A stretch of DNA of 41,941 bases from Candidatus Daviesbacteria bacterium. Its GTDB lineage: Bacteria > Patescibacteriota > Microgenomatia > Daviesbacterales > UBA10151. This document shows positions 4,452 to 41,941 of this stretch, in pieces; position 1 is the stretch's first letter, and every line of letters begins with the position of its first letter. The notes beneath the pieces are model-generated. The model worked only from the letters and a program-made list of their open reading frames with translations, was not told where the DNA came from and did no database searches. Position numbers and translations under genes: made by a program. Where the stretch lies: NCBI GenBank assembly GCA_016176415.1, contig JACOXH010000006.1, positions 1 to 41,941 of the forward strand. The letters run 5' to 3'.

Positions 4452-6484
4452 GGTTTTGCTGAAGCAGTGGCTTGCTGAAGCTGGACTACAGCCTCAAGAT
4501 AATTTGGTTTAAGTTTTATTGTCTCACTCAAGACTTTAATTGCCTCATTTTTTTTGCCCATTACTTCCAAAACCAGTGCTTTATTGTAGTAAAGCTTTGG
4601 ATCTGTGAGGGCAAGTTTTATAGCTGTATCAAGTGTTTGTACAGTTTTTTCTAAATATTTTGGATCAAGGGCAGCCAGTTCAAAATAGGTTCTCACGGCA
4701 GTCCTTAGGTATGAAACATTTTTAGGACTTTGGGTAAGTACCTGATTTATTTGAGATGCTGCTTCATCTTTTAACGCAGCGGACAGAGTAGCATCAGATT
4801 CTGCTAAAGCTCCCGCAGCCTGAGCAGCAGCTAAGGAAAGCTCTGATTTATAAAACAGCTCACCTTTATTAATGTCTGAAGCAGTTACCAACAAGTTGTA
4901 AGCTCTGCCTGGATTACCTGCCTCCAAAGCTTTTTGTCCTTTGGCAAACAGGGTATCTGCAAACCAAATTTGGGTCACACAGTAAAGCAAATACAGCGTT
5001 ACCAGTACTACAAATCCTTTGGCAATATTAGTATAAATTTTGCGGCGGTAAATAAAAGGGAAAAGGGTCAAGCGTAAAGGGGAAAGTGAGTCAGTGGCAG
5101 CAAAAGCCAAAGCAGGAAAAAGGTAGAAAAAGACAGCAATGATTACTACAGAAAATAAGAAAAAGTTGTAGATAAGATAGGAGATGTAAGAAGCAAGGAG
5201 AATTGATACTAGGATATAGGGATATTGGGAGATCTTTGTTCCCTTTATATCATAATATCTTAATATCGACTTAATGCACCAAAGTGCAAATGTTCCAATT
5301 ACTATCATGTATGTTCCAAATCCTACTAAACCAGTAGTAGCTAAATAATTCAAATATTCATTATGAGCCTTGTTATACAAAAAATCCCATTCAGAAGTTA
5401 AGTTATGCTCTACTGGTCTGTATTGATAATAGGAGTAGGCAAAAGTTTCTAAGCCCGAACCAAACAGGGGATTATTTTTAAATATCTCCAAAGCTCCTTT
5501 CCAGACAATAAACCTGATCTGTCCTGATTCAGTTCCTCCATTTTCCAGCTGTGTTCCTACAGAAGCAGTTGGTAAAGCTATGGCAGGCCTTGCAGGAGCT
5601 GCAAATTTGGAAACTAACCTGAAACTGGTCAGGGCCGATCCAAAAAGAATATTAATAACAAGAAAAGATATTAAAATACCAGCTAATCCTGTCATTCTGA
5701 GTGAAACGAAGAATCTCAAGATCCTTCGGGCTTTGCCCTCAGGATGACAAAAAATATAGCCGATGATAAATATCACCATTCCTCCTATCAGTCCGAGTGT
5801 TGGGCCTCTTGAGTAAGTGAAAGTGAACGCAAGGTACATGGTAATAAGAGATATGTAATAAGTAATACGTTCGTTTTTACTGGTTGAATTAAGCAAAAAG
5901 TAAAAAGCAGGGAAGATCAGCATAGCAAGATACGCTGCCAGCCAGTTAGGTTGTCCTAAAGTGGCAAACACTCTGGCTTGAACATCCTGTATCCAGCAGG
6001 AAGCATTAAATTCACCTCTTAAAAGGATACAGGAAGGTGAAACTCCAAAGTGTTCTAAAATTGCCCATATAGAAATTACAAAGCCTGAAGCCAACCCATA
6101 CTTTAAAGTAGTTTTGACTTTTTTAAAGTCCATATTAGAGACAAAAGCCCAATAGAGCAAGAGATAAGAGATAAGAGATAAGAGCCCGCCATTTGATCTT
6201 GAGTAATAGCCCCAGATGGAGGTATGTCTATCCATGGAAAAGATGGTTGATAAAATATTGGCTCCTAAAAATAAAAGCAGAGGAATATCTAAGGGGGTTC
6301 GATTAAGACTCAATGATTTCTGATTAATGATTTTTAAAAGCCATGCTCCAACAATGATAATGGTAAACCCATAAACCAAAATCATTTTGTTATATTCAAA
6401 CAGTTCATAATTTTGTGAGGACCAAAAAAGCGGGGTTAAAAAGAAAAGCAGATAAAAAGAGTAGGAAATAACTTTGTCTAACAT
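4448..6484 (-). CDS. O-antigen ligase/polymerase (Wzy-like) membrane protein with C-terminal TPR region
   Basis: Multiple TM segments, QPNWLAAYLAM, FGSGLETFAYSYYQYRP...HNEYLNYLATTG, TPR-like LYYNKALVLEVMGKKNEAIKVLSETIKLKPNYLEA. Confidence 0.85.
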   Translation of the reverse strand: MLDKVISYSFYLLFFLTPLFWSSQNYELFEYNKMILVYGFTIIIVGAWLLKIINQKSLSLNRTPLDIPLLLFLGANILSTIFSMDRHTSIWGYYSRSNGGLLSLISYLLLYWAFVSNMDFKKVKTTLKYGLASGFVISIWAILEHFGVSPSCILLRGEFNASCWIQDVQARVFATLGQPNWLAAYLAMLIFPAFYFLLNSTSKNERITYYISLITMYLAFTFTYSRGPTLGLIGGMVIFIIGYIFCHPEGKARRILRFFVSLRMTGLAGILISFLVINILFGSALTSFRLVSKFAAPARPAIALPTASVGTQLENGGTESGQIRFIVWKGALEIFKNNPLFGSGLETFAYSYYQYRPVEHNLTSEWDFLYNKAHNEYLNYLATTGLVGFGTYMIVIGTFALWCIKSILRYYDIKGTKISQYPYILVSILLASYISYLIYNFFLFSVVIIAVFFYLFPALAFAATDSLSPLRLTLFPFIYRRKIYTNIAKGFVVLVTLYLLYCVTQIWFADTLFAKGQKALEAGNPGRAYNLLVTASDINKGELFYKSELSLAAAQAAGALAESDATLSAALKDEAASQINQVLTQSPKNVSYLRTAVRTYFELAALDPKYLEKTVQTLDTAIKLALTDPKLYYNKALVLEVMGKKNEAIKVLSETIKLKPNYLEAVVQLQQATASAKP
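5690..5749. repeat. family-A palindromic repeat inside a CDS (60 nt, in frame)
   Basis: tgtcattctgagtgaaacgaagaatctcaagatccttcgggctttgccctcaggatgaca; encodes CHPEGKARRILRFFVSLRMT within the ligase. Confidence 0.92.
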
Positions 6485-13217: not shown

Positions 13218-14006
13218 ATGGTCAAAGTTATTCCTAACCTCAAGCTTTTTTTATTCCTTATCTTTTTAAGTTTTATTACTTTTGGTTTAGACAGTGTCCG
13301 TCTTTTAAAGCTGCCGAGTCAGTTTCTTTTTTATATTACTAACCCTGTGTCTTTTGGAATATACCGTTCCAGTCAAAATATAGGTAAGCAGTTTTATTTT
13401 GTTTTTGCAGCCCGTAAAGCAGGACAGGAAAACAAGGCTTTAAAAGCTACTTTAGGACAATTATTTTCTGAAAATGCTGATTTAAGAAAAAAACTGGCAG
13501 AAGCAGAAGCTTTAGTTTCTCAACAAGAGCACCTTGATCCTCAAACTTACAACATGACAGCAGCAAGACCAATAGGTTTGGGAAGGTATTTAAAAATTGA
13601 TAAAGGTTTAAGTGCCGGAATAAAAGTAGGCGAGGCAGTGGCTTTTGAAGATAACTTTATAGGAAAAGTTGTCTCTGTTTCCGAACAATCTGCCAATGTG
13701 CAACTTTTAACTGACCCTGATTCAAAAGTGGCAGCTTTTTCTCAAAATAATGAAGGTAGGGCCAAAGGGATTTTAACCGGCCAATTTGGTACAGAGATTT
13801 TGCTGGATAAAATATTGCATGAGGAAAAAATAAATTTGGAAGATATTGTGTACTCTGAAGGCACGGAAGGGTTTTTACCAAGAGGGTTAATTTTGGGCAG
13901 AGTAAGTGAGGTTATTGCCAAAGAAAATGATGTGTTTAAACAAGCTAAAGTACAACCCATTTTTGATATCAGGGATTTAGAGTTGGTATTTGTGATAGAA
14001 GAGTAG
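13218..14006 (+). CDS. mreC: rod shape-determining protein MreC
   Basis: Coiled-coil region plus DPDSKVAAFSQNNEGRAKGILTG, position upstream of mreD and PBP2. Confidence 0.9.
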   Translation: MVKVIPNLKLFLFLIFLSFITFGLDSVRLLKLPSQFLFYITNPVSFGIYRSSQNIGKQFYFVFAARKAGQENKALKATLGQLFSENADLRKKLAEAEALVSQQEHLDPQTYNMTAARPIGLGRYLKIDKGLSAGIKVGEAVAFEDNFIGKVVSVSEQSANVQLLTDPDSKVAAFSQNNEGRAKGILTGQFGTEILLDKILHEEKINLEDIVYSEGTEGFLPRGLILGRVSEVIAKENDVFKQAKVQPIFDIRDLELVFVIEE

Positions 14007-14012
14007 AATAGA

Positions 14013-14073
14013 GACTAGAGTCGAGAGTCAAGGAAAAACAAAACTTGACTCTAGCCACTAGTGACTAGTCACT
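14013..14073. repeat. family-D palindromic repeat (GAGTC / AGTGACTAGTCACT)
   Basis: Stem AGAGTCAAG (14024-14032) / CTTGACTCT (14044-14052) followed by perfect palindrome AGTGACTAGTCACT (14060-14073). Confidence 0.9.
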
Positions 14074-16389: not shown

Positions 16390-17469
16390 ATGAATAATAT
16401 TGCGTATCTTTTGGCGCTGCATTCAATTGATGGGCTGGGGCCAATCAGGCTCCGGGCTGTTTTGGAGTATTTTAAAGATCCAAAACTGGTATGGGAAGCG
16501 CCTCAGGAACAGATTGTTAAGCTGGGGATACCAAGGCTGGTGGCACAGCTTTTATCAGAAACGCGTAAAAAGTTAGACCCTGAAACTTATGCCAAAAAAA
16601 TGGCAGCAGAAGGTATTAAGTGGGTGACTGTTTATGATGAAAATTACCCTAAACTGCTTGCTCAAATTTATGATCCTCCTACAGTTTTATACTACAAAGG
16701 AGATTTAGATTCTTTAAACCAAAAAACTGTGGCAGTGGTGGGAACCAGAAAAATCACAGGATACGGCAAAGTTGTTACTGAACAATTCACCAAAGGTTTA
16801 ACAGATGCAAATTTAACAGTAGTATCAGGTTTGGCGCGCGGAGTTGACAGTCAGGCGCATCTTACTGCAGTTTTACAAAGCGGTAAGACTGTGGCAGTTT
16901 TGGGAGGAGGTTTGAATAAAATCTTCCCTCCTGAAAACAGGACTTTGGCTGACAGGATTTCCAAAGGTTTTGGGGCAGTAATTTCTGAATTTCCTCCTGA
17001 TTATCCTGCTTTACCGGGTAATTTTCCCTCAAGAAATCGCATCATTTCCGGATTATCTTTAGGAGTTTTGGTTATTGAGGCGGCGGCTGATTCCGGTTCC
17101 TTAATTACTGCCAGATTAGCTTTGGAACAAGGCAGAGAAGTATTTGCTGTGCCCGGTCCGGTAACTTCTGATTTGTCCAAAGGCCCGATTGATTTGATAA
17201 ACATGGGGGCAAGGGCAGTTTTTGATCCGGGTGAAGTTCTTGAAGAGTTAGGGATAAGTGGAGTCAGAGAGTCAGAGAGTCAGAGAGTCAAAGATCTGTC
17301 GGAGGAAGAAAGGCTGGTGCTGGATGTTTTGGAAAATGAAAATAAACATATTGATGAGATTGGCAGACAATTACAATTTCCTGCCCCCAAAATCTCTGCC
17401 TTACTTTTAAAAATGGAAATTTCAGGACTTGTTCAAAGCATGGGAGCTGGGATATACTGCAGGAAGTAG
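16390..17469 (+). CDS. dprA: DNA-processing protein DprA
   Basis: VAVVGTRKITGYGK, VVSGLARGVDSQAH, AVLGGGLNKIFPPEN, ISGLSLGVLVIEAAADSGSLITARLALEQGREVFAVPG; C-terminal winged helix. Confidence 0.96.
   Translation: MNNIAYLLALHSIDGLGPIRLRAVLEYFKDPKLVWEAPQEQIVKLGIPRLVAQLLSETRKKLDPETYAKKMAAEGIKWVTVYDENYPKLLAQIYDPPTVLYYKGDLDSLNQKTVAVVGTRKITGYGKVVTEQFTKGLTDANLTVVSGLARGVDSQAHLTAVLQSGKTVAVLGGGLNKIFPPENRTLADRISKGFGAVISEFPPDYPALPGNFPSRNRIISGLSLGVLVIEAAADSGSLITARLALEQGREVFAVPGPVTSDLSKGPIDLINMGARAVFDPGEVLEELGISGVRESESQRVKDLSEEERLVLDVLENENKHIDEIGRQLQFPAPKISALLLKMEISGLVQSMGAGIYCRK
17261..17292 (+). repeat. 8-nt tandem repeat (gagtcaga) inside dprA
   Basis: gagtcaga gagtcaga gagtcaga gagtcaaa: three perfect units plus one with one mismatch. 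Confidence 0.95.
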
Positions 17470-21559: not shown

Positions 21560-23593
21560 ATGAAAAATTTAGTTGTGGTGGAAAGTCCTACAAAAGCGAG
21601 AACCTTGCAGAAATTTTTGGGTGATCAATATCAGATAGAGGCCTCAATGGGACATGTGAGGGATCTGCCAAAATCAGAATTTGGGGTGGATACAGAACAC
21701 AATTTTGAACCCCAGTACATAATCCCCAGAGATAAGAAAAAAAGGGTAAATGAACTTAAGAAGGTGGCCAAGGAAGCAGAGAATTTGTGGCTTGCCACAG
21801 ATCCTGACAGAGAAGGGGAAGCGATAGCGTGGCACTTGTCAGGACTACTGGGAGACTCAAAGCCTACCAAAAGAGTAGTCTTTCATGAAATCACAGAAGA
21901 AGCTATTAAGGAGGCATTCCAAAGCCCCAGACAAATTGACAGCCAGCTGGTAGATGCCCAGCAGGCCAGAAGAGTGCTGGACAGGTTAGTAGGTTATAAA
22001 TTATCTCCTTTGCTTTGGGAAAAAGTTAAAAGAGGGCTGTCTGCAGGAAGAGTGCAATCTGTGGCTTTGCGCCTCATTGTGGAAAGAGAAAAAGAAGTTA
22101 AGGCATTTGTGCCTGAAGAGTATTGGAATATAGAAGCTGAATTAGAGTCAAGAGTCAAGAGTAAGCAAAGCTTGCGACCTGACGGTCTTCAAGAGTCAAG
22201 GATTGTGGCAGCTTTGGTAGAAAAAGACAGCGCAAAACTGGAAATTAAAAATAAGGAAGAAGCAGACAGTCATGTAAAAAATCTAGAGAATGCAACCTAT
22301 GAAGTAGCCAAAATCACAAAAAAAGAGGTGCACCGCTATCCATACCCGCCATTTACCACCTCAACTTTGCAGCAGGCAGCAGCCAACAGGTTAAGCATGT
22401 CTGCCAAAAAAACCATGATGCTTGCTCAAGCTTTATACGAACACGGTCTTATTACCTATATGAGGACGGATTCTGTTAATTTATCTGCTCAGGCTATTTC
22501 GGCAGTCCGCGCTTATATTTCCTCCTCCATAGGAAAGCAATATCTTCCAGGTACGCCAAGAGTTTTTAAGGCAAAATCAAGAAATGCTCAGGAAGCTCAT
22601 GAGGCAATCAGGCCTACTAATGTAAGTTTACAGGCAACAGGAATCAGAGAGCAGGGAGGGTTAAATAAGGATCATGCCAGACTTTATGATTTAATCTGGA
22701 AAAGGTTTGTGGCCTGTCAGATGAATGAAGCTGTGATGGATCAGACAACTGTGGATATCAGCGCCGGCAGTTATATTTTAAGAGCTACAGGCAGTGTTGT
22801 AAAATTTGACGGCTGGCTGAAATTATATGGAAAAGATACTGAAGAGGATCTGCCTGCCGGCAGGCAGGAAGAAGAGAGGAAACAAATTCTCCCTGAACTT
22901 TCAGAGGAGGAATTGCTTAAGCTAGTTCAACTTCTGCCTACGCAACACTTTACTGAACCTCCTCCCAGATATAATGAGGCTTCTTTAATTAAGAAACTGG
23001 AAGAGCTGGGAATTGGCCGCCCTTCCACATATGCTCCAATCCTATCAACAATTCAGGAAAGGTTTTATGTAGAAAAACAGGAAAGAAAATTTATCCCTAC
23101 ACCTTTAGGGATTACTGTAACTGATTTTCTGGTTTCCAATTTTGCAGATATTGTAGACTATGAATTTACAGCCAAAATGGAAGACGAGCTGGATGAAATA
23201 GCCAGAGGTGAAAGGCAGTGGCAGCCGACTATACAGGAATTTTATACTCCTTTTTCCAAAAAACTGGAGGAAACAAAAGAAACTGCCAAAAAAGTAAAAA
23301 TGGAAGTGCAGTTGGCAGGCAAAAAATGTCCTGATTGCGGTAAAGAGTTAATTATAAGAATAGGCAGGTTTGGCAAGTTTTTGGCATGTTCAGGCTTTCC
23401 TGATTGCAAACACACAGAATCAATGGAAGAAAAAATTAATGCTGTATGCCCTGATGATGGTGGGGAAATTGTGGTCAGACGTACCAAAAAAGGTAAAACT
23501 TTTTACGGCTGTAAAAACTGGCCTGTTTGTAAGTATGCTTCCTGGACCAAGCCTAAGACAGAGGAAAACAAAACTCCTGGTGTGCAAACCTGA
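21560..23593 (+). CDS. topA: DNA topoisomerase I
   Basis: VVESPTKARTLQKFLG, ASMGHVRDLP, ATDPDREGEAIAWHL, ITYMRTDSVNLS, two C-terminal Cys4 zinc ribbons. Confidence 0.97.
   Translation: MKNLVVVESPTKARTLQKFLGDQYQIEASMGHVRDLPKSEFGVDTEHNFEPQYIIPRDKKKRVNELKKVAKEAENLWLATDPDREGEAIAWHLSGLLGDSKPTKRVVFHEITEEAIKEAFQSPRQIDSQLVDAQQARRVLDRLVGYKLSPLLWEKVKRGLSAGRVQSVALRLIVEREKEVKAFVPEEYWNIEAELESRVKSKQSLRPDGLQESRIVAALVEKDSAKLEIKNKEEADSHVKNLENATYEVAKITKKEVHRYPYPPFTTSTLQQAAANRLSMSAKKTMMLAQALYEHGLITYMRTDSVNLSAQAISAVRAYISSSIGKQYLPGTPRVFKAKSRNAQEAHEAIRPTNVSLQATGIREQGGLNKDHARLYDLIWKRFVACQMNEAVMDQTTVDISAGSYILRATGSVVKFDGWLKLYGKDTEEDLPAGRQEEERKQILPELSEEELLKLVQLLPTQHFTEPPPRYNEASLIKKLEELGIGRPSTYAPILSTIQERFYVEKQERKFIPTPLGITVTDFLVSNFADIVDYEFTAKMEDELDEIARGERQWQPTIQEFYTPFSKKLEETKETAKKVKMEVQLAGKKCPDCGKELIIRIGRFGKFLACSGFPDCKHTESMEEKINAVCPDDGGEIVVRRTKKGKTFYGCKNWPVCKYASWTKPKTEENKTPGVQT
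22145..22203. repeat. repeat insertion inside topA (GAGTCAAGAGTC plus family-E palindrome)
   Basis: gagtcaagagtcaagagtaagcaaagcttgcgacctgacggtcttcaagagtcaag; encodes ESRVKSKQSLRPDGLQESR. Confidence 0.88.
22850..22867. repeat. 18-nt perfect palindrome inside topA
   Basis: CTGCCTGCCGGCAGGCAG, encoding LPAGRQ. Confidence 0.95.
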
Positions 23594-39927: not shown

Positions 39928-39999
39928 TGTCATCCTGAGTGATTAGCGAAGGATCTCGGTTGGAATCTAGAGATTCTTCGGCTACGCCTCAGAATGACA
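39928..39999. repeat. family-A palindromic repeat between yqeY and ybeY
   Basis: tgtcatcctgagtgattagcgaaggatctcggttggaatctagagattcttcggctacgcctcagaatgaca. Confidence 0.92.
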
Positions 40000-40004
40000 A
40001 ATCT

Positions 40005-40421
40005 ATGTTTAACATCATCATCAATTCAGATCCCAGATATAATGTTAATAAGGCCTCTATTCAGGCTGTGGTTATCCAAATACTGCAAAAGCTGCGTATT
40101 TCAGGCCGTATTGAGTTAGGGGTTAATATCGTGGGAGACAGGAAAATGCATGAACTGAATAGAAAATACCGCGGTCTTGACTCTACTACTAATGTGTTGT
40201 CTTTTGCCCTGGAAGATTCCAGTCCTGCCAGCTTACAACATATTCCCAGAATTGGTTTTGTGGCAGCACCTGATAAGTGGTTGAGATTGGGTGATATTGT
40301 CATTTCTTATCCCCAGGTTTTGGAGGATGCTTCGCTGGAGGGGTTATCAGTTGATGAAGAAATCAGGTATATGGTAGAACATGGACTTAATCACCTTTTG
40401 GGAATTCACCATACCTCATGA
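40005..40421 (+). CDS. ybeY: endoribonuclease YbeY
   Basis: NRKYRGLDSTTNVLSFAL, GDIVISYP, EHGLNHLLGIHH; start moved downstream of the repeat. Confidence 0.9.
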   Translation: MFNIIINSDPRYNVNKASIQAVVIQILQKLRISGRIELGVNIVGDRKMHELNRKYRGLDSTTNVLSFALEDSSPASLQHIPRIGFVAAPDKWLRLGDIVISYPQVLEDASLEGLSVDEEIRYMVEHGLNHLLGIHHTS

Positions 40422-41941
40422 GTAACACAGCTTTTTATTTGAAGTACCGCCCGCAGGCATTGGACGCTCTGATCGGGCAGGAAGCTGTTAAGAAGATCTT
40501 ACTTTCTTCTTTTGAAAATAATAAACTTTCACACGCTTACCTTTTTTCAGGGCCGCGCGGTAGCGGTAAAACTTCAACAGCCAGAATCTTGGCAAAAATG
40601 GTTAATTGTGAGAGACAAGAGTCAAGAGACAAGAGTCAAGAAAAGACTGTTTTGCCTAGTCTCTCCACTCTAGCGACTAGTCGCTTACCCTGTAATAAAT
40701 GTACTACTTGTCTTTCCATTACCGATGGGTCCAATATGGATTTAATTGAAATTGATGCTGCTTCAAACAGAGGGATTGAAGATATAAGATCTTTAAGAGA
40801 CAAAATCAAACTTGCTCCAACTTCTGCTAAGAAAAAAGTCTACATTATTGATGAGGTGCATATGTTAACTACAGAAGCTTTTAATGCTTTGCTTAAAACT
40901 TTGGAAGAGCCTCCCAAGCATGCTTTATTTATTCTGGCCACAACAGATGCTTCCAAATTACCTCAAACAATTTTATCCAGAGTGCAAAAGTTGGATTTTA
41001 AACCTGCTACAACAGATGAACTTTTAAAAGCGTTTGAACATATTGTCAAAGAAGAAAAAATTGACATAGACAAAGAAGCTTTAAAAAGCCTGGCAAAAAA
41101 AGCAGATGGTTCTTTTAGGGACGGGGTTAAGCTTTTGGATCAGTTGGCATCAATGGGCGCAAAAATTACCACTGAAATTATCAAAGAGAGTTTAAAATCT
41201 TTTGAGTTTGAAAATATTTTGGAACTGACAAGAGATTTAAAAGATAAAAAAACTTCAGAAGGTTTGTTAAAAGTTTCTCAAGCAACTGAAAATGGAGCTG
41301 ATATAAAGGAAGTATTGCTTTATTTGATGGATGTTTTAAGAAATATAGTATTTATAAATAATGGTTTAGGTGAACAGCTGGTAAAAAAGAATTTTACAGA
41401 AGATAAATACGCAGAACTGATAAAGTTGGCGGATCAGTGGGAGAATCGCGGTTTAGTTAAAAGTCTTGATATTTTACAAAAAAGTTTGGAAAAGATGAAA
41501 TTTGCGTCAATTCCCTCATTACCGCTGGAGTTAGCAGTGGTAGAGATATGCGGAGCGGAATCTGCACAAAAGAAGTTAGATGTTAGAAGCGAGAAGTTAG
41601 ATAAGCAGAGCTTGCCTTACGACGAAGGTCAAATCTCCAACATCCAACCTCAAGATCCAATTTCCAATTTCCAACACCCAATTTCTAATGATGACATTGC
41701 TAAAATAAAAGAAAAGTGGACATTTGTGCTGGAAACCATAAAGCCTTTTAATTTTTCTCTGGAGGCGTTACTTCGATCCATTAGTGTAACAGAATGCAGC
41801 AAAGATACTGTGATTATGGAGGTACCATATTCTTTTCATCAAAGAATTTTGGAAGCTCCTAAAAACAGGGATCTTTTGGAGTCAATTTTATCTGATATTT
41901 TAGGCAGAAGCATCAGAATCTCAACAGTACTGGGGGCGCGC
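40418..41941 (+). CDS. dnaX: DNA polymerase III subunit gamma/tau, partial at window edge
   Basis: YLKYRPQALDALIGQEAV, GPRGSGKTSTARILAKMVNC...CNKCTTC, DLIEIDAASNRGIEDIR, IIDEVHML. Open to the last base. Confidence 0.96.
   Translation, partial: MSNTAFYLKYRPQALDALIGQEAVKKILLSSFENNKLSHAYLFSGPRGSGKTSTARILAKMVNCERQESRDKSQEKTVLPSLSTLATSRLPCNKCTTCLSITDGSNMDLIEIDAASNRGIEDIRSLRDKIKLAPTSAKKKVYIIDEVHMLTTEAFNALLKTLEEPPKHALFILATTDASKLPQTILSRVQKLDFKPATTDELLKAFEHIVKEEKIDIDKEALKSLAKKADGSFRDGVKLLDQLASMGAKITTEIIKESLKSFEFENILELTRDLKDKKTSEGLLKVSQATENGADIKEVLLYLMDVLRNIVFINNGLGEQLVKKNFTEDKYAELIKLADQWENRGLVKSLDILQKSLEKMKFASIPSLPLELAVVEICGAESAQKKLDVRSEKLDKQSLPYDEGQISNIQPQDPISNFQHPISNDDIAKIKEKWTFVLETIKPFNFSLEALLRSISVTECSKDTVIMEVPYSFHQRILEAPKNRDLLESILSDILGRSIRISTVLGAR
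40610..40685. repeat. family-D palindromic repeat inside dnaX
   Basis: gagagacaagagtcaagagacaagagtcaag...cctagtctctccactctAGCGACTAGTCGCT; perfect 14-nt palindrome at 40672-40685. Confidence 0.9.
41580..41700. repeat. repeat-derived linker inside dnaX
   Basis: gataagcagagcttgccttacgacgaaggtc followed by ccaatttccaatttccaacacccaatttc; low-complexity peptide LDKQSLPYDEGQISNIQPQDPISNFQHPIS. Confidence 0.7.

Follow-up and report, generated by a model that had tools for sequence, protein, structure and literature searches.

The window analysed here, the whole stretch of 41,941 nucleotides from a Candidatus Daviesbacteria contig, ends within dnaX, the gene for DNA polymerase III gamma/tau (40418..41941, forward strand, open at the window edge). 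The gene was identified by NCBIfam models NF004046/TIGR02397, which score over their cut-off, and in a PDB comparison DnaX matched 1xxi/1jr3 with an E value of about 1e-60. The translation, the gap in the PDB alignment and the loop lengths of relatives delimit an in-frame insert of 27 codons in the zinc module (40610..40690, forward strand), which separates Cys64 (40607-40609) from Cys92 (40691-40693) and lies ahead of CxxCxxC. The inserted peptide is ERQESRDKSQEKTVLPSLSTLATSRLP, and its DNA contains the perfect palindrome AGCGACTAGTCGCT at 40672-40685. E. coli gamma/tau has 8 residues at this site, leaving an alignment gap of 19 residues. An earlier note on this DNA had described the open reading frame, the 27-residue segment and the palindrome, and had given an E. 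coli loop of about 8 residues; all of these were confirmed. Programmed frameshifting in dnaX was considered and set aside, since the insert comprises codons 65-91, far from the E. coli frameshift site.

The same note had raised the prospect of an exposed loop. AlphaFold2, run on DnaX with 37 sequences, returned a model with a mean pLDDT of 89, in which residues 71-90 form low-confidence blocks (mean pLDDT 59 and 62) within a flanking fold that is mostly above 90. The prediction is consistent with the insert being a flexible loop within a confident fold, its function aside. In the C-terminal linker, where pLDDT falls below 50 at residues 394-419, we recognized from the sequence a second repeat-like segment with units TTAGAAG / AATTTCC (41572..41700, forward strand); tried as a second element, it yielded one further partial copy in the genome. 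Upstream of dnaX, a palindrome, GTCATCCTGAGTGATTAGCGAAGGATCTC...CAGAATGACA, at 39931-39998 overlaps the start of an ORF that is ybeY-like by eye, and it is similar to the palindromes that occupy the dnaX and CCA-adding enzyme loops in sister species.

The insert DNA represents one copy of a repeat dispersed through the genome, an element of ~75 bp composed of four 7-bp units, a loop, inverted 7-bp units and the end CTAGCGACTAGTCRCT. On the forward strand, the left arm (40611..40643) carries the heptads AGAGACA AGAGTCA AGAGACA AGAGTCA, recognized as a lag-7 array and from the genome copies, and is followed by the central loop (40644..40655), placed by alignment of 9 copies. The right arm (40656..40685) holds the inverted heptads, the conserved right end CTAGCGACTAGTCGCT and the palindrome, and was assigned because CTAGCGACTAGTCRCT is common to other copies. 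The lag-7 self-match of the insert DNA was 0.50 (p=0.001 against dinucleotide shuffles, taking the best of lags 4-12). The earlier note had listed a duplicated unit, a GAGAC/GTCTC pairing and the palindrome; repeat DNA is indeed present, but its unit is 7 bp (GAGACAA/GAGTCAA) rather than 14, and the pairing and the palindrome, both real, are parts of the left arm and the inverted right arm of one element. Folded as DNA, the insert gave a hairpin energy with p=0.027; RNA folding of the same copy was not exceptional (z -1.47), and Rfam returned no match at the dnaX element.

Alignment of the 9 full copies revealed a common right end, GACTCTAGCGACTAGTCACT, and a common hairpin geometry, with covariation in the hairpin that is weak within the genome (double changes at two pairs). 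Most copies span about 57-82 bp with heptad arms, and three ribosomal-gene copies reach up to 138 bp through extra spacer. Within the window, a second full element of this family directly follows the stop of mreC (14003..14073, forward strand; placed by copy alignment, with MreC identified by Pfam PF04085), and a related array with a spacer (LESRVKSKQSLRPDGLQESR) lies in frame within topA (22144..22216, forward strand; from the reading of genome copies, with topA identified by TIGR01051). A different repeat, four copies of the 8-bp unit GAGTCAGA, is found inside a coding region at 17261-17294.

To follow the repeat beyond the window, we searched the organism's own 676-kb genome with the 20-nt array pattern AGAGWCWAGAGWCWAGAGWC, allowing up to 3 mismatches, and obtained 100 matches compared with 1 for the reversed control. 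When the stretches around them were read, the 100 matches collapsed to about 33 places, in which weak 3-mismatch matches (e.g. L152, L167) may be chance. The 131-bp dnaX region used as a query recovered 20 places. The search suggested by the earlier note, for the same DNA elsewhere, thus found it scattered both within other genes and in intergenic DNA: about 15 copies lie in frame inside genes and about 7 at gene 3' ends, and the remainder are intergenic. With gene names assigned by family models, the in-frame copies occupy dnaX, the CCA-adding enzyme, mevalonate kinase, HMG-CoA reductase, polA (two), yebC, holB, trmD, recX, tsaD, topA, leuS and an unnamed ORF (two), and dinB holds a mixed copy. 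An ordinary variable loop of which the repeat appearance is compositional would agree with the variation in zinc-module loop length across the family. However, because copies exist genome-wide, this explanation is contradicted: the same DNA is present at about 33 loci, intergenic ones included, and the period is 7 nt in the DNA and not codon-based. We regard it as highly improbable.

The 3'-end copies belong to HMG-CoA reductase again, grpE, rplV, rpsQ, a PfkB kinase, Jag/KhpB and a ribosomal-cluster gene (L169) that has no family match and whose 3' end is formed by the repeat. In rplV, rpsQ and L169, the terminal element extends nearly to the next start codon. Hairpins kept by selection for a host function, through mRNA folding, pausing during translation or a binding site, might be expected at such ribosomal protein gene junctions, where several elements stop just short of the following start codon, and MacGregor proposed translational regulation for the TAACTGA heptads (PMC4679880). 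By contrast, the repeat sequence and its presence at each site differ between close species, and the dnaX copy is unexceptional in its RNA folding; a selected role of this kind appears unlikely.

Since 7 = 1 mod 3, an (AGAGTCA)n array encodes RVKSQES, one and the same heptapeptide, whichever forward frame is read, and it has a stop in every reverse frame; MacGregor made a similar point about frame for TAACTGA (PMC4679880). The AGAGTCA arm lies on the coding strand in all 22 clear coding copies, with two ambiguous exceptions, the dinB copy and a different, AGAGATA array at 6159; even 22 of 24 would give a two-sided p of about 4e-5 by our own arithmetic (3e-6 was computed for 23/24). The second exception to the strand rule, at 6159-6184, reads as three copies of AAGAGAT in a 678-aa ORF on the other strand. 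Junctions able to create TAG are rarer in coding than in intergenic copies, with CAAG:CTAG at 55:12 in the former versus 14:21 in the latter (Fisher p=4e-5); in this test the copy following mreC was placed among the coding ones, and junctions from a single array lack independence.

Comparison of DnaX among 30 genomes of the family demonstrated that the zinc-module loop is a hotspot, with 6-9 residues in most relatives and 12-43 residues with repeat DNA in others. AGAGTC-type DNA fills the long loops of the own genome, G008, G020 and G031, and other genomes carry the units CAGTCGT (G006), CATCAGT (G022), AATCGTT (G004), GCnnTTn (G003, G005) and GGAAAGG (G007, G017). The loop of G001 is a GTCATTCTGG...CCAGAATGAC palindrome unrelated to the heptads, and that of G014 is another hairpin with long inverted arms. 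In 10 dnaX loops lag 7 was the best period (p<=0.006), and some short loops contain one or two heptads (ESQ, ESQEP; L019, L038). The CAGTCGT unit has dispersed copies in G006 and none in the own genome; the AATCGTY unit of G004, scanned in 37 genomes, has 0 occurrences in the own genome and few elsewhere. On a dnaX tree built without the loop, with many weakly supported branches and repeat types assigned by eye, the minimum is 6 changes in presence/absence and 13 in repeat type. The dnaX gene of G010 (G010:C34:10795-12344) is split into three pieces, reflecting decay, frameshifting or an assembly error.

The same pattern was observed in two other proteins. At one site of the CCA-adding enzyme, several sisters have a loop of 7-8 residues as opposed to 28-52 aa of unrelated repeats, which are heptads in the own genome and G037, and GTCATTGCGAG/GTCATTCTGA palindromes in G002, G017, G001 and G005. 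At one site of YebC, the array is of AGAGTCA, AAAGTTC or GGGGAAA type or is absent, depending on the genome. An extra YebC insert, EPFDSAQGKD in G001 (L222) and EPFDFAQGKN in G017 (L234), is possibly repeat-encoded with a different peptide. At the dnaX site itself, the segment is absent from relatives or replaced by unrelated repeat DNA, and the protein-level conservation that the earlier note considered an argument for an ordinary loop was not found. Since the DnaX, CCA and YebC sites carry different repeats or none, these findings support the segment being repeat DNA tolerated in coding sequence and not a conserved protein loop.

AGAGTC arrays were present in 24 of the 56 genomes searched, the own genome included; nearly all belong to the same family, and the array is largely missing from other families of the class. 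Near dnaX and yebC in this family, we counted 23 period-7 arrays in 191 kb, a density biased upward because several are the dnaX and yebC sites themselves. Other short periods gave 0-2 arrays in the same neighbourhoods, the multiple 14 excepted, and distant bacteria had 4 period-7 arrays in 395 kb. This dominance of period 7 regardless of unit sequence would suit growth in place, whereby slippage expands a chance heptad in a variable loop, gene conversion then homogenizes the arrays and nothing moves. The dnaX loops with one or two heptads fit as well, as do arrays in YebC and TsaD that substitute for loop sequence with length hardly altered. However, slippage alone does not produce the inverted arm and the non-repetitive right end that the copies have in common, and unrelated long palindromes also occupy the same loops. 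Growth in place is accordingly doubtful as the explanation. In YebC, TsaD, TrmD and HMG-CoA reductase, arrays take the place of native loop sequence with length hardly altered, so simple insertion does not account for every copy; this suggests conversion or template switching more than clean insertion in these proteins.

We also considered whether the RAYT (Y1 HUH) transposases of the genome mobilize the heptad repeats as REP-type elements. Five Y1_Tnp genes are present here, matches occur in 35 of 37 genomes searched, and hairpin repeats suit that enzyme class in general. However, the RAYT genes have GGTGG..TGACACC-like palindromes of their own on their flanks and no heptads in the vicinity, and they are also carried by genomes with few or no heptad arrays; none of eight Y1_Tnp loci read for flanking heptad repeats had any. 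The heptad element resembles REP/REPIN-RAYT systems in its short dispersed palindromes and in the presence of RAYT genes, yet flanks no RAYT gene examined; REPs are also extragenic by definition, unlike this coding element. RAYT as the motor of the repeat was thus looked for and left unsupported, and we consider it very unlikely. The RAYT-like Y1 transposase genes (L209-L216) include several that sit between their own imperfect palindromes with TGACACC ends.

The repeat is dispersed through the genome, lies in frame inside genes with a biased orientation, and recurs at the same sites. We propose, with a probability of roughly 0.85, that the DnaX insert is a copy of a dispersed, hairpin-forming repeat that was placed at many sites and retained in tolerant positions. 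Copies of the heptad family would arise at many places in the genome by copying of a transposition-like or template-switch kind, with heptad slippage afterwards. Inside genes, survival would require a position in a tolerant surface loop or at a terminus, an intact frame and an AGAGTCA arm on the coding strand, the orientation in which any frame would give the same hydrophilic, stop-free RVKSQES. The DnaX zinc-module loop would be one such tolerant site, occupied time and again by distinct repeat families in different species. We infer that DnaX still works with the insert and that the effect of the element is neutral, not useful. More tentatively, the DnaX zinc module, CCA-adding enzyme and YebC loops may be standing landing sites for several unrelated repeat families in this bacterial family, where repeats of a 7-bp unit possibly prosper because they are frame-neutral, giving in one orientation a harmless peptide that is identical in every frame.

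Rickettsia and Wolbachia provide the best-known cases of coding palindromic repeats, and the earlier note had drawn an analogy with the Rickettsia palindromic elements (RPE). Like RPE, the present repeat has dispersed copies between genes and in frame in unrelated conserved genes, so the analogy applies to how it behaves; the family is probably a different one. RPE and the Wolbachia palindromic elements are dispersed hairpin DNA, intergenic and in frame in conserved genes, with several sequence families per genome (PMC2229807, PMC10969869). RPE measure 105-150 bp and have terminal inverted repeats. By contrast, the element here is ~75 bp with arms of 7-bp units in place of long terminal inverted repeats, sister species fill the same protein loops with different repeat families, and the host is a small-genome bacterium, CPR-like judging by that size, and not a member of the Rickettsiales; RPE are not described as heptad arrays. 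Dispersed short tandem arrays of a 7-bp unit are shared with TAACTGA and the cyanobacterial STRR. The TAACTGA repeats of Beggiatoaceae, cyanobacteria and Bacteroidetes lie for the most part between genes ahead of start codons, or at the ends of proteins, form almost exclusively direct arrays with no predicted secondary structure, and encode a single heptapeptide from one strand with stops in three frames of the other (PMC4679880). Unlike these, the AGAGTCA/AGAGACA unit has an inverted partner arm, forms hairpins and often lies in the core of essential proteins. Borg tandem repeats are DNA repeats that create disordered protein segments, with coding units divisible by three (PMC9879509), as opposed to the unit of 7 here. 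With regard to MITEs, which combine terminal inverted repeats with a target-site duplication, inverted arms were observed in the element, and neither an empty site at strain level nor a target duplication was found. In how it works the repeat is akin to Rickettsia palindromic elements and in its construction to heptamer repeats, fitting neither definition in full. No account of coding repeats like these in CPR bacteria was found in the literature searched, which was limited in extent.

In summary, repeat DNA occupies the interiors of some fifteen proteins, many of them essential, in a very small genome, and sister species swap the type of repeat at the same residue. The heptad repeats illustrate how repeat DNA can enter coding sequence in any frame, and comparison between species offers a direct measure both of loop tolerance and of how new protein segments originate. 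If the standing loops are indeed landing sites, they would offer repeat DNA a way to spread through the coding sequence of streamlined genomes.
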